Shown in pieces: positions 44,903 to 48,850 of a stretch of 64,000 bases of DNA (positions are counted from its first letter, which is position 1; every line of letters begins with the position of its first letter). The position numbers and the translations under genes are program-made. The stretch is from Myxococcales bacterium (GTDB lineage: Bacteria > Myxococcota > Myxococcia > Myxococcales > Anaeromyxobacteraceae), in assembly GCA_021806645.1 (NCBI GenBank), contig JAJZQX010000003.1, positions 248,001 to 312,000 of the forward strand, read 5' to 3'. A model generated the notes under the pieces. That model searched no databases. It was not told where the DNA came from and saw only the letters and a list, made by a program, of their open reading frames with translations.

Positions 44903-44926
44903 GGTGTCATCAAACTTGATGACACC
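44903..44926. promoter_or_regulatory. Perfect 11+11 palindrome, operator-like
   Basis: GGTGTCATCAA (44903-44913) and TTGATGACACC (44916-44926) are exact inverted repeats around AC. The A/T content is high for this genome. It lies about 70 bases beyond the end of the phosphodiesterase gene and about 360 bases upstream of accD. It could be an operator for a TetR/MarR/GntR-type dimer; no T tract follows, so it is not a standard terminator. Confidence 0.5.
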
Positions 44927-44998: not shown

Positions 44999-45763
44999 TC
45001 AAAACGTGAAGGTGTCGCCGACTTCCAGGATCCGCACGTTCGGAAGCCTGAGCGCGGCCACCTCGCGGCGCAACGCCGGAACGTAGGCCGGCTTCAGGTG
45101 GTAGAGCAGGATGGGCAGGTCGGCGCGCTGCAGCTTGGCCAGCTCGCGCGCCAGGGTCCTTGGCGTGAGGTGGCCGGACAGGTCGGCCAACCGCTGCAGG
45201 CGGTTGGGGAAGGAGACCTCGACCAGCAGGGCCTTGAGGCCCGGCGTCGAGTTGACCTGCTTCCAGAACCGGGTGGTCGGGCCGGTGTCGCCGGAGATGG
45301 CGAACGCGCTGCGCCCCCTGGAGACCACGAACCCGACCGACTCGACCGGGTGGCGGACCGGCACCGGCTGGAAGGTCAGGCCGCCGGCCTGGAAGGCGCG
45401 CTCGGTGGAGAAGGGGCGCAGCTCCATCACCGGAGACCGGGCCGACGGGATGCGCGTGAAGTCTGGCCAGAGCTTGCCGTTGAAGACGCTCTTGTGGAGC
45501 GTGCGGGCGCACTCGGTCGAGGCGTGGACCCGCACCGGGGTCTTGCGCAGCCCCACCAGCAGGTCGGCCAGCAGCGGGACGTCCTTGACGTGGTCGAAGT
45601 GGCTGTGGGTCAGCACCACGTCGTCCACCTTCAGCAGCTTGGCGAGCGGCAGCGAGGAGGTGAGGGCCCCGGCGTCGATGGCCAGCCGCCCGTCCACCAG
45701 GAAGCAGGTGGTCCGGTGGTCCGGAAGCTCGCCGCCCGAGCAGCCGAGGACGCGGAACCTCAC
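44999..45763 (-). CDS. Metallo-beta-lactamase-fold hydrolase, putative class II cAMP phosphodiesterase
   Basis: A 254-residue protein with the fold and start of class II cyclic-nucleotide phosphodiesterases (MRFRVLGCSGGELPDHRTTC). The metal site is HSHFDH at 53-58 (VVLTHSHFDHVKDVPLLADL), with later ligands in FAISGDTGP and LLYHLKP. The EVSFPNRLQRLADLSGHLTP segment resembles the family's EvSFP..R....GHLtp block. It lacks the full PROSITE class II signature, so cAMP as substrate is inferred from this and from context: the GTG start overlaps the stop of a Crp-type gene, which follows an adenylate cyclase gene. Confidence 0.7.
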   Translation of the reverse strand: MRFRVLGCSGGELPDHRTTCFLVDGRLAIDAGALTSSLPLAKLLKVDDVVLTHSHFDHVKDVPLLADLLVGLRKTPVRVHASTECARTLHKSVFNGKLWPDFTRIPSARSPVMELRPFSTERAFQAGGLTFQPVPVRHPVESVGFVVSRGRSAFAISGDTGPTTRFWKQVNSTPGLKALLVEVSFPNRLQRLADLSGHLTPRTLARELAKLQRADLPILLYHLKPAYVPALRREVAALRLPNVRILEVGDTFTF

Positions 45764-46407
45764 CCGAGGTCTCCGAACTGCGCCTTCATCTGGAGGAACT
45801 CCAGGAAGTGGCGGAGCTTGTCGGTGTCGGGCACCACGAAGCCGTCGGGGTGGACCGAGACGATCTTGGCCTTGAGCAGCTTCATGAGCGCCTCGTCGGC
45901 CTGGTCGGGCTTGACGCCGACGCGGGCCGCCAGGTCGCGCGGGGCCATGTCGATCTTCATCCCGGCGGCGGTCCTGGTGCCGCGCTCGGCCGCCACCGAC
46001 AGCCAGTGGACCACCCGCGAGGCCGCGTCGGTGAGCAGCAGGTTCTCGATCTGCTCGTTGGCCTCGGCCAGCCGGTCGGAGAGCTTCTTGATGAGCCGGA
46101 CCGCGATCTCGGCGTTGGACCGGATCATGGTCTCGAAGGTCCTGGCGTCGATCACCAGCAAGCGGCAGTCGTCGTCGCAGATGGCGGTGGCGCTGCGCGG
46201 CCTGTTGTTGAGGATGGCCATCTCGCCGAGGAACTCGCCGGGGCCGAGCCTGGAGAGGATCTTCTCCACCTCGCCCACCCGCTTGCTGATGGTCACGCTC
46301 CCGGCGTTGACGACGAACATCTCCCGCCCCTCGTCTCCCTCGCGGAAGAGGACGGTGCCGCTGGGGAACTCCCGGCCGAAGCGCTGGAAGAGGGGATCGT
46401 CGGACAT
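45760..46407 (-). CDS. Crp/Fnr-family cyclic-nucleotide-binding regulator
   Basis: A 215-residue protein. The cNMP-binding domain (residues 10-115) has a phosphate-binding cassette FLGEMAILNNRPRSATA at 59-75, with Glu62, Arg71 and Ser72 that bind the ribose and cyclic phosphate, so cAMP binding is credible. A long dimerisation helix (about 100-135) leads to a winged-helix region at about 152-190 (MAPRDLAARVGVKPDQADEA), which resembles but is weaker than a canonical Crp recognition helix. ATG 46407 is chosen over the ATG 46479. It overlaps the phosphodiesterase gene (GTGA) and follows the cyclase gene by 94 bases. Confidence 0.88.
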   Translation of the reverse strand: MSDDPLFQRFGREFPSGTVLFREGDEGREMFVVNAGSVTISKRVGEVEKILSRLGPGEFLGEMAILNNRPRSATAICDDDCRLLVIDARTFETMIRSNAEIAVRLIKKLSDRLAEANEQIENLLLTDAASRVVHWLSVAAERGTRTAAGMKIDMAPRDLAARVGVKPDQADEALMKLLKAKIVSVHPDGFVVPDTDKLRHFLEFLQMKAQFGDLG

Positions 46408-46501
46408 GTCGGGGCGCGTCACCTCGTGGTCACTTAGCCGACGTGACTCGGGGCTGTCAACGAAAGGGCCAGGCGCCACGCACCCTTGAACGGCACGCCG
46501 C

Positions 46502-48850
46502 TCACTTGCTCTCCATCGTGAACGCTCCGTCCCAGTCCGGCCCAGGCGGCTCGCGCCGCATCCGCTCGCAGCGCGCCAGGTAGACCTGCGAGCACTCGTC
46601 GCCGCCGCGGAGCCGATCGGCCTCGCGGAAGTGCGCGATGGCCTCGTCCCAGCGCTGCGCCTGCCACGCGCCGTAGCCCCAGCCGAAGGCCTCGAGGAAG
46701 GCGGCGTCGGCCGCCGAGACCGGCCCCACCCCGAGCAGCTCGTAGATCCGGACCGGGTCCTGCTTCCCCTTCACCCGCGCCAGGTCGAGCGGCCGCGCCA
46801 CCACCCGCCCCTGCACCTTGGCGTAGGTCTCCGGCCCGATGATGATGCGCGTGCCGTACTGCTTGTTGGCCCCCTCCAGCCGCGAGGCCAGGTTCACCGC
46901 GTCACCGAGGATGGTGTAGTTGTAGAAGCGGTCCTGGCTGCCGACGAAGCCGACCGACATCGAACCGGTGTTGAGGCCGATGCCGATGTCGATGTCGGGC
47001 AGCCCGGCGGCGCGCCAGCCCGGCCGGAGCCGCTCCAGCTCCGTGAGCATGTCGAGCGCCGCGCGGCAGGCCCGCAGCGCGTGATCGGGCTGGGCCCTGG
47101 GCGCGCCCCAGAACGCCATGATGGCGTCGCCCATGTACTTGTCGAGCGTCCCCTGGTGGCGCGAGACGATGACGTCGGTCATGGGCGTCAGGTACTGGTT
47201 GAGCAGCTCCAGCAGCCGGTGCGGGTCGAGCCGCTCGGAGATGGTGGTGAAGCCGCGGATGTCGGCGAAGAGCGCGGTCAGCTCGCGCTTCTCTCCGCCC
47301 AGCTGCAGGGACCCCTCGTTCCCCAGCACCTCGTCCACGATGGCCGGCGCCAGGAAGCGCGAGAAGGATTCGCGCGCCTTGCGCTTGGCCCGCTCCTCCG
47401 AGAAGAACCGGTAGGTGGTTGCGGTGAGGAACATGCTCAGCACCTGCAGCAGTGGCAGGCCGGTGGCCAGCACCAGGTTGAAGCGGCGCAGCGCCAGCAC
47501 CGACACCGCCGCCCAGAGCGCGGCGACCGCCAGCAGCGCCGGCGCCGCCGCCACCGGGCCGACCCGCGAGAAGAGCCAGGCCAGCGCCACCGAGGCCAGC
47601 GCCATGGCCAGCACCTCGCCCAGCACCACCCACTGCGAGCGCTCCAGCAACTGCCCGTGCAGCACGTTGTCGACGAAGGTGGCGTGGGTGATGACGCCCG
47701 GCGCGCTGTCGTCGAACGAGGTGACGCGCTGGTCCCACGTGCCCGGCGCGGTGGCGCCCACCAGCACCAGCTTGCCGCGGAGCCGCGCCGGCGGGACGCG
47801 CCCGGTGAGCACGTCGGTGGCGGAGATGGTGGGGAAGTCGCGGAAGCTGCCGTAGTAGGAGAGCGGCGCCCGCCCGAAGTCGTCGGTGGCGATCTCCAGG
47901 TCGCCGACCCGCACCCCCACCAGCACGCTGGAGCCGGCCACGCCGACCGGCACCACCGGCGCCGGGATCCCGTCGCGCCCCTTGACCCGCGCCAGCAGCG
48001 CCAGCCCGAGCCCCGGGAAGGTGCTCCCGCCCGCGCTGGCCAGCAGCAGGTAGCGCCGGATGACCCCGTCGGCGTCGGGCAGCACGGTGAAGTAGCCGCC
48101 GCTGTCGGAGACCTTCAGCACCTCGCCGACCGGCGCCAGCACGCCCGGGAAGGAGCGGCCGGCCCCGCCCCGCCCGCCGGCCGGGTCGGCCACGATCCGG
48201 CCATCGGCGCCCAGGACGTGCACCGCCTCGGTCCGGAAGAAGCGGAGCCGCTCCACCGCCTCTCGCGCGGCCGCGGGGCTGCTCACGTCGCTGCGGAACA
48301 TGAAGCCGACGGTGACGTTGTGGGCCTTCTCGATGGCGTCGGCCAGCAGGCCGGTCGGGTCGGCGTCGGGCGGGATGGTCGGGTCGCTGCCCTGCGAGGC
48401 CCGCCAGATCCGGTCGAGCCGCTCCGCCTCCTCGCCGCTGGCCTGGGCCCGGGCCTCCTTGACCCGCCGGGCCACCTCGGCGGCCCGGGAGCCCTGGACG
48501 TCGGCGTCGCTCCAGATCATGTCGAAGCCGACCGCGGCGGCGCCGGCGGCGGCGAGCGCGTCCACCAGCCGCGCCATCCGGGCCCGGCTCCAGGGCCAGA
48601 TCCCCTCCACCTCGATGGATCGCTCGTCGATGGCCACGATCACCACGTCGCCCGACGGCGCGCGCGGCCCCCGCAGCGTGGTGAGGGCGTAGTCCTGCGC
48701 CGCGTACTCGATGCGCGAGACGACCGGGAACTGGGAGCCCTTGCGCGCCCAGAGGACGTCGAGCACGTGGAGGCCGGTCAGGAGCAGCCCGACGTAGAGC
48801 GCCAGCCGGAAGGCGTCGATGCGGAACAGGGCGCGGCGGCGGGCGACCAT
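46502..48850 (-). CDS. CHASE2-domain adenylate cyclase (class III)
   Basis: A 782-residue membrane cyclase. A first membrane helix (about 12-32) leads into an extracytoplasmic CHASE2 sensor (about 45-400: [49 protein letters not shown]), three C-terminal membrane helices (about 405-480) and the catalytic domain (525-700). Metal Asp530 (LFADIRGF) and Asp575 ([13 protein letters not shown]) are present. Lys571 and Asp650 (TILGDAVN) are the adenine-selecting pair; Asn653 and Arg657 stabilise the transition state. So it should make cAMP, not cGMP. A C-terminal helical segment follows. ATG 48850 is chosen; ATG 48946 would overlap purM. Confidence 0.92.

Follow-up and report, generated by a model that had tools for sequence, protein, structure and literature searches.

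We analyzed a predicted cyclic-nucleotide signalling locus in a 64,000-nucleotide stretch of DNA from a Myxococcales bacterium of the Anaeromyxobacteraceae (GenBank assembly GCA_021806645.1, contig JAJZQX010000003.1, forward-strand positions 248,001 to 312,000; hereafter the window). Three genes lie head to tail on the minus strand between positions 44999 and 48850. They code for a class III cyclase with a CHASE2 domain, a Crp-like cyclic-nucleotide-binding (CNB) winged-helix protein, and an enzyme with a metallo-beta-lactamase (MBL) fold. A gap of 94 bp separates the cyclase and CNB genes, and the CNB and MBL genes overlap. The open reading frames, their strand, the overlap and the gap, all given in an original prediction made from this DNA, were confirmed when checked on the sequence. 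The features of the locus are as follows.

46502..48850, minus strand: CHASE2-class III nucleotidyl cyclase, 782 aa (Pfam CHASE2 and Guanylate_cyc)
47138..47140, minus strand: codon of Lys571, predicted adenine-selecting residue of the cyclase
46913..46915, minus strand: codon of Thr646, predicted second adenine-selecting position
45760..46407, minus strand: CNB winged-helix (Crp-like) protein, 215 aa (PF00027, 86 bits)
46195..46224, minus strand: phosphate-binding cassette Glu62...Arg71 of the CNB protein
45862..45909, minus strand: degenerate recognition helix, residues 167–182; the equivalents of E. coli CRP R180/R185 are P167/E172
45775..45825, minus strand: C-terminal helix past the wing, residues 195–211, of the KLRHFLEFLQMKAQF type
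45760..45763, minus strand: GTGA overlap of the MBL start (GTG) and the CNB stop (TGA)
44999..45763, minus strand: MBL-fold class II cyclic-nucleotide phosphodiesterase-like enzyme, 254 aa (PF02112, 45.8 bits)
45590..45607, minus strand: HSHFDH metal-binding motif, residues 53–58
45461..45484, minus strand: FNGKLWPD motif, residues 94–101; the yeast PDE1 counterpart is FNDLIWPD

The cyclase is laid out as an N-terminal transmembrane segment, an extracytoplasmic CHASE2 domain, further transmembrane segments, a catalytic domain at about residues 515–707 and a C-terminal extension. Matches to CHASE2 (PF05226, residues 39–421, 178 bits) and Guanylate_cyc (residues 522–703, 76 bits) both exceed the Pfam cut-offs, and hydrophobic segments at 15–35 and 405–478 provide the N-terminal membrane anchor and the later membrane block that flank the sensor domain in CHASE2 proteins. 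The catalytic domain contains the residues that define class III adenylate cyclases: the metal-binding Asp530 and Asp575, the base-selecting pair Lys571/Thr646 and the transition-state pair Asn653/Arg657. In an alignment of 48 orthologs Asp575, Lys571, Thr646 and Arg657 are invariant and Asn653 is kept in 47; Asp530 was invariant as well in the alignment that covered it. The adenylate-type cyclase and Lys571 of the original prediction both stood; its second adenine-selecting residue, Asp650, did not. Alignment to solved class III cyclases places Thr646 at the position of mammalian Asp1018, and Asp650, also invariant (48/48), is a neighbour four residues farther on. Since Lys/Thr is a known adenine-selecting pair among bacterial class III cyclases, the expected product is cyclic AMP (cAMP).

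The MBL enzyme matches Lactamase_B_2 (61 bits, above cut-off) and, above the gathering score of 23.7, PDEase_II (PF02112). Among 24 aligned homologs, the seven ligands of a two-metal site (H53, H55, D57, H58, H138, D159 and H222) are invariant, as are F94, N95, W99, P100 and D101 of the FNGKLWPD segment. When a profile of these 24 sequences was run against the PDB, yeast PDE1 came first (55 bits, 5.5e-14), followed by YhfI (35 bits) and RNase Z (34 bits). The structural model (predicted local distance difference test score, pLDDT, 92.5) matched PDE1 best (4ojv; Z 27.4 over 249 residues, 2.1 A), then YhfI-type structures (Z 26) and RNase Z (Z 25). Identity as an RNase Z was rejected: the TIGR02651 score of 35.4 lies far below the cut-off of 293, and a separate full-length RNase Z is encoded elsewhere in the same genome. 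Because PDE1 leads both by profile and by fold, PF02112 is matched above cut-off and RNase Z is a separate gene, the most fitting prediction for the MBL enzyme is a class II cyclic-nucleotide phosphodiesterase. The original prediction had come to a similar reading from the HSHFDH motif, which is indeed present. In seven Myxococcaceae-type genomes the MBL gene is the sole PF02112 gene above cut-off; the enzyme is therefore probably an ortholog of Myxococcus xanthus PdeE. PdeE reportedly hydrolyses cAMP and cGMP with micromolar Km, and its mutant is said to be delayed in development.

The CNB protein carries one half of what characterizes Crp/Fnr regulators and lacks the other. Its cNMP_binding domain (PF00027) is above cut-off, and the Glu62/Arg71/Ser72 cassette, correctly predicted to be intact in the window, keeps Glu62 and Arg71 without exception across the 64 full-length orthologs. 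Position 72 varies: 40 of them have Ser there, 18 Asn, 4 Thr and 2 Ile. At the position of E. coli CRP Ser128, 52 of the 64 have Asp. The HTH_Crp_2 match (24.3 bits) falls short of the cut-off of 27, not one of the 64 orthologs is basic at both the R180 and the R185 equivalent, and the average net charge of the recognition helix is negative. The impression that the DNA-binding segment is weaker than in canonical Crp held, with the base-contacting arginines lost in all 64 of the orthologs compared. Mean column entropy was lowest in the cassette (0.71), followed by the C-helix (0.90) and the C-terminal helix (1.41), and highest in the winged helix (2.0–2.25; recognition helix, 2.06). The AlphaFold model (pLDDT 85.9) has CRP architecture plus an extra helix at 195–211; this C-terminal helix, more conserved than the winged helix, keeps L202 in 97% and L205 in 100% of orthologs. 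MtbCRP-cAMP and GlxR are among the top fold matches. The ratio of nonsynonymous to synonymous substitution rates (dN/dS) of the gene was low: 0.19 for the genus of the window and 0.11–0.23 for the A. dehalogenans-like genus. By these sequence comparisons the protein is a Crp-like receptor under selection for ligand sensing, not for canonical operator recognition, and is not a canonical Crp regulator. Two orthologs (L088:3646-4053 and L090:6279-6686) end after about 130 residues at an early stop or frameshift and have no winged helix; they could reflect assembly error or genuine loss.

An MBL homolog was found in 152 of 195 Myxococcota genomes (E ≤ 1e-10), nearly always in single copy. Synteny was analyzed at 53 loci from genomes with a homolog, 46 of which had sufficient upstream sequence. 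At 48 of the 53 loci, from many genera, the MBL gene is immediately preceded by the CNB gene on the same strand. The cyclase gene directly precedes this pair at 26 of the 46 loci, which are spread over many family-level groups, and does not at the other 20, two of which have a cyclase 1.8–3.2 kb farther upstream. In the window, purM is divergent and upstream of the cyclase, and accD and folC follow the MBL gene on the same strand; among the 53 loci, accD comes directly after the MBL gene at 21 and folC lies within 6 kb at 41. The gene order is far beyond chance, and the operon-like layout originally proposed recurs in other Myxococcota. In a tree of MBL proteins the cyclase is present in all major branches, with at least nine parsimony changes, three of them forced by starred branches. 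Given this distribution, the trio appears most simply to be ancestral in Myxococcota, with repeated loss of the cyclase; Myxococcus-, Corallococcus- and Archangium-like genomes are among those in which it has gone from the pair.

Variants of the locus were also seen. At L075 (genome G040) the MBL gene is kept beside purM and accD, and the CNB gene is lost. L129 (G163) has a cyclase, extra CNB-like matches and a CNB ortholog directly before accD-folC; no MBL homolog was found in that genome at E ≤ 1e-10. At three A. dehalogenans-like loci (L126, L127 and L128) the CNB gene stands directly before accD-folC, and the cyclase and MBL genes are gone from the locus. MBL homologs of 43–46% identity occur in metagenome-assembled genomes (MAGs) of Acidobacteriota/Thermoanaerobaculia (L101-L109).

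We looked for cyclases of class III with Pfam and an 18-sequence profile at E ≤ 0.1, and for those of class I and class IV (CYTH). The genome of the window codes for three further class III cyclase domains. The CNB and MBL genes, their sites intact, are also present in two other genomes, G042 (a single closed contig, 99% complete) and G045 (a draft, 99%). The searches detected no cyclase of class I, III or IV in these two, nor any cyclase in the A. dehalogenans-like G031 and G032, two of the genomes behind loci L126, L127 and L128; this result of profile searches does not prove that cyclase activity is absent. A hidden class I or class IV (CYTH) writer in the four genomes was rejected, none having been found. 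They may have an unrecognised cyclase, the pair may have another ligand, or the CNB protein may act independently of ligand. The original prediction had seen in the three genes a local, insulated and self-contained signal. This is not supported, because of the three extra cyclase domains, the repeated loss of the cyclase, which is the most dispensable of the three genes, and the retention of the CNB and MBL genes where no cyclase is detectable.

We consider it reasonably probable that the trio is an ancestral Myxococcota cyclic-nucleotide operon of cyclase writer, CNB reader and MBL eraser, with reader and eraser as its core. Judging by its residues, the outward-facing CHASE2 cyclase would make cAMP. 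A dimeric CNB protein would bind the cyclic nucleotide through the phosphate-binding cassette, as its conservation suggests, and the PDE1/PdeE-type phosphodiesterase would hydrolyse the nucleotide and reset the sensor, which the probable orthology with PdeE supports. The cyclase would be a frequent but replaceable partner, and because it is replaceable the pair probably reads the cellular cyclic-nucleotide pool, not a private one. Since the canonical Crp DNA contacts are lost and the C-terminal helix is kept, the reader would probably act through contact with a protein or through a DNA site of an atypical kind.

Several observations weigh against such an operon. A pool of 3',5'-cAMP is not demonstrable in G042 and G045, nor in G031 and G032, which keep only the CNB gene of the trio, immediately before accD. 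In the Acidobacteriota MAGs the MBL gene has no recognisable adjoining CNB or cyclase gene where flanking sequence is available. In 62 of the 64 CNB orthologs Ala takes the place of the adenine-contacting Thr127 of E. coli CRP, so that the specificity of the reader for cAMP is only putative. Finally, the strict class II signature HXHLDH reads HSHFDH in the MBL enzyme of the window; several of its orthologs read HSHLDH.

The persistence of reader and eraser without a detectable cyclase would be accounted for if the eraser acted on 2',3'-cyclic nucleotides from RNA decay, instead of or besides 3',5'-cAMP, and so shielded the CNB protein. There is precedent in Sinorhizobium meliloti SpdA, whose gene shares a locus with a cyclase and Clr and for which such protection has been proposed; 3',5'-cAMP was its expected substrate, but it acts on 2',3'-cyclic nucleoside monophosphates (cNMPs; PMC4222275). 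A second precedent is the related MBL enzyme Rv1339, which hydrolyses both isomers (PMC9293780); these two cases leave the substrate unsettled by gene adjacency. However, SpdA is a class III metallophosphoesterase of another fold, the nearest solved relative, yeast PDE1, is by name a 3',5'-cyclic-nucleotide phosphodiesterase, and a paper cited by PMC13087886 (Kimura et al. 2011) names M. xanthus PdeE in its title as a class II 3',5'-cyclic nucleotide phosphodiesterase. We regard this reading of the eraser as unlikely. A low probability is likewise given to the broader idea that the reader-eraser pair is a unit independent of any dedicated cyclase, with 2',3'-cNMPs from RNA decay or the product of an undescribed cyclase as ligand, and acts via protein contacts, possibly with the neighbouring acetyl-CoA carboxylase (AccD), whose gene the CNB gene still adjoins in A. 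dehalogenans-like genomes that have lost cyclase and phosphodiesterase.

It is rather improbable that the trio is a standard cAMP-CRP regulon served by a cyclase and a phosphodiesterase of its own, in which the CNB protein would be an ordinary transcription factor of the Crp type whose operator has diverged. The model does show full CRP architecture with a winged helix, and MtbCRP and GlxR stand among its top full-length matches, but the sub-threshold HTH_Crp_2 score, the lack of basic residues at both contact positions, the net negative recognition helix and the winged helix itself, where conservation is weaker than anywhere else in the protein, all argue otherwise. Even less can be said for the MBL protein being an RNase Z-like or other hydrolase beside accD-folC, held there by housekeeping inertia, which we consider very improbable. 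RNase Z and YhfI are close in fold, accD and folC are often downstream, and the gene lacks CNB neighbours in Acidobacteriota; yet PDE1 is ahead by 20 bits in the profile search and has FN..WPD and GHL.P segments in common with the MBL enzyme, the RNase Z family model is far from matched in a genome with its own RNase Z, and the CNB link persists in lineages where accD no longer adjoins. Pycsar defence was rejected as a candidate: the similarity is of a generic cyclase/CNB kind, and the CNB protein has no TIR or transmembrane effector domain.

A literature search for the cyclase-CNB-MBL trio found no paper. The earlier statement that no pathway had been described for it stands to that extent; it has to be qualified by the probable orthology with PdeE and by the cyclase/Crp/phosphodiesterase locus of Sinorhizobium (PMC4222275). 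There, cyaD1-clr-spdA likewise combines a cyclase, a Crp-type cAMP receptor and a phosphodiesterase, in a proximity conserved in sinorhizobia; unlike the locus analyzed here, it has in SpdA an enzyme of another class and in Clr a proven cAMP-dependent DNA-binding protein (PMC4222275). PdeE, the probable counterpart of the MBL enzyme, differs in setting, as no cyclase adjoins the pair in Myxococcus-type genomes. Saccharomyces cerevisiae PDE1 (4ojv/4ojx) is 25% identical over the fold match but about 115 residues longer and has HXHLDH where the MBL enzyme has HSHFDH. The "atypical class II" enzymes Rv1339, YhfI and Corynebacterium glutamicum CpdA (PMC9293780) have in common with it the MBL fold, the [T/S]HXHXDH motif (THSHFDH here), a PF12706 match and similar length, whereas their family model NF041851 gives only 43.3 against a cut-off of 400 and PDE1 scores higher. 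MtbCRP and GlxR, cAMP-binding Crp-type regulators, resemble the CNB protein in domain composition and are its best full-length fold matches, but the CNB protein has lost the base-contacting arginines, has Ala at the Thr127 position and carries an extra, conserved C-terminal helix.

The module is real and conserved and most simply ancestral, its parts are all of known kinds, and the phosphodiesterase has probably been assayed already in M. xanthus. What is new is that the arrangement is conserved, that the DNA contacts of Crp have been lost, and that reader and eraser survive where no writer can be recognised. Judging by paper titles, mainly single parts of myxobacterial cyclic-nucleotide signalling (CyaA, PdeE and CbpB) have been described so far, and the trio offers a phylum-wide three-gene handle on it. 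A receptor and a phosphodiesterase, apparently intact and kept without a recognisable cyclase, raise the question of their ligand, and of how a Crp-like protein acts when it lacks the contacts that Crp makes with DNA.

The intergenic DNA of the window has two further features. In the gap that separates the cyclase and CNB genes (46408-46501), a TTGACA precedes GTCAC-N9-GTGAC, and the two might form a promoter and a site for autoregulation. A perfect 24-bp palindrome, GGTGTCATCAA-GT-TTGATGACACC, the sole palindrome found, occupies 44903-44926, past the MBL stop and ahead of accD. It was absent from all fetched relatives, and a regulatory palindrome common to relatives was rejected on that ground; a search of the genome gave no second exact copy of its 18-bp core. 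The chance expectation of this core within the window is 0, and the palindrome is a possible operator for accD.

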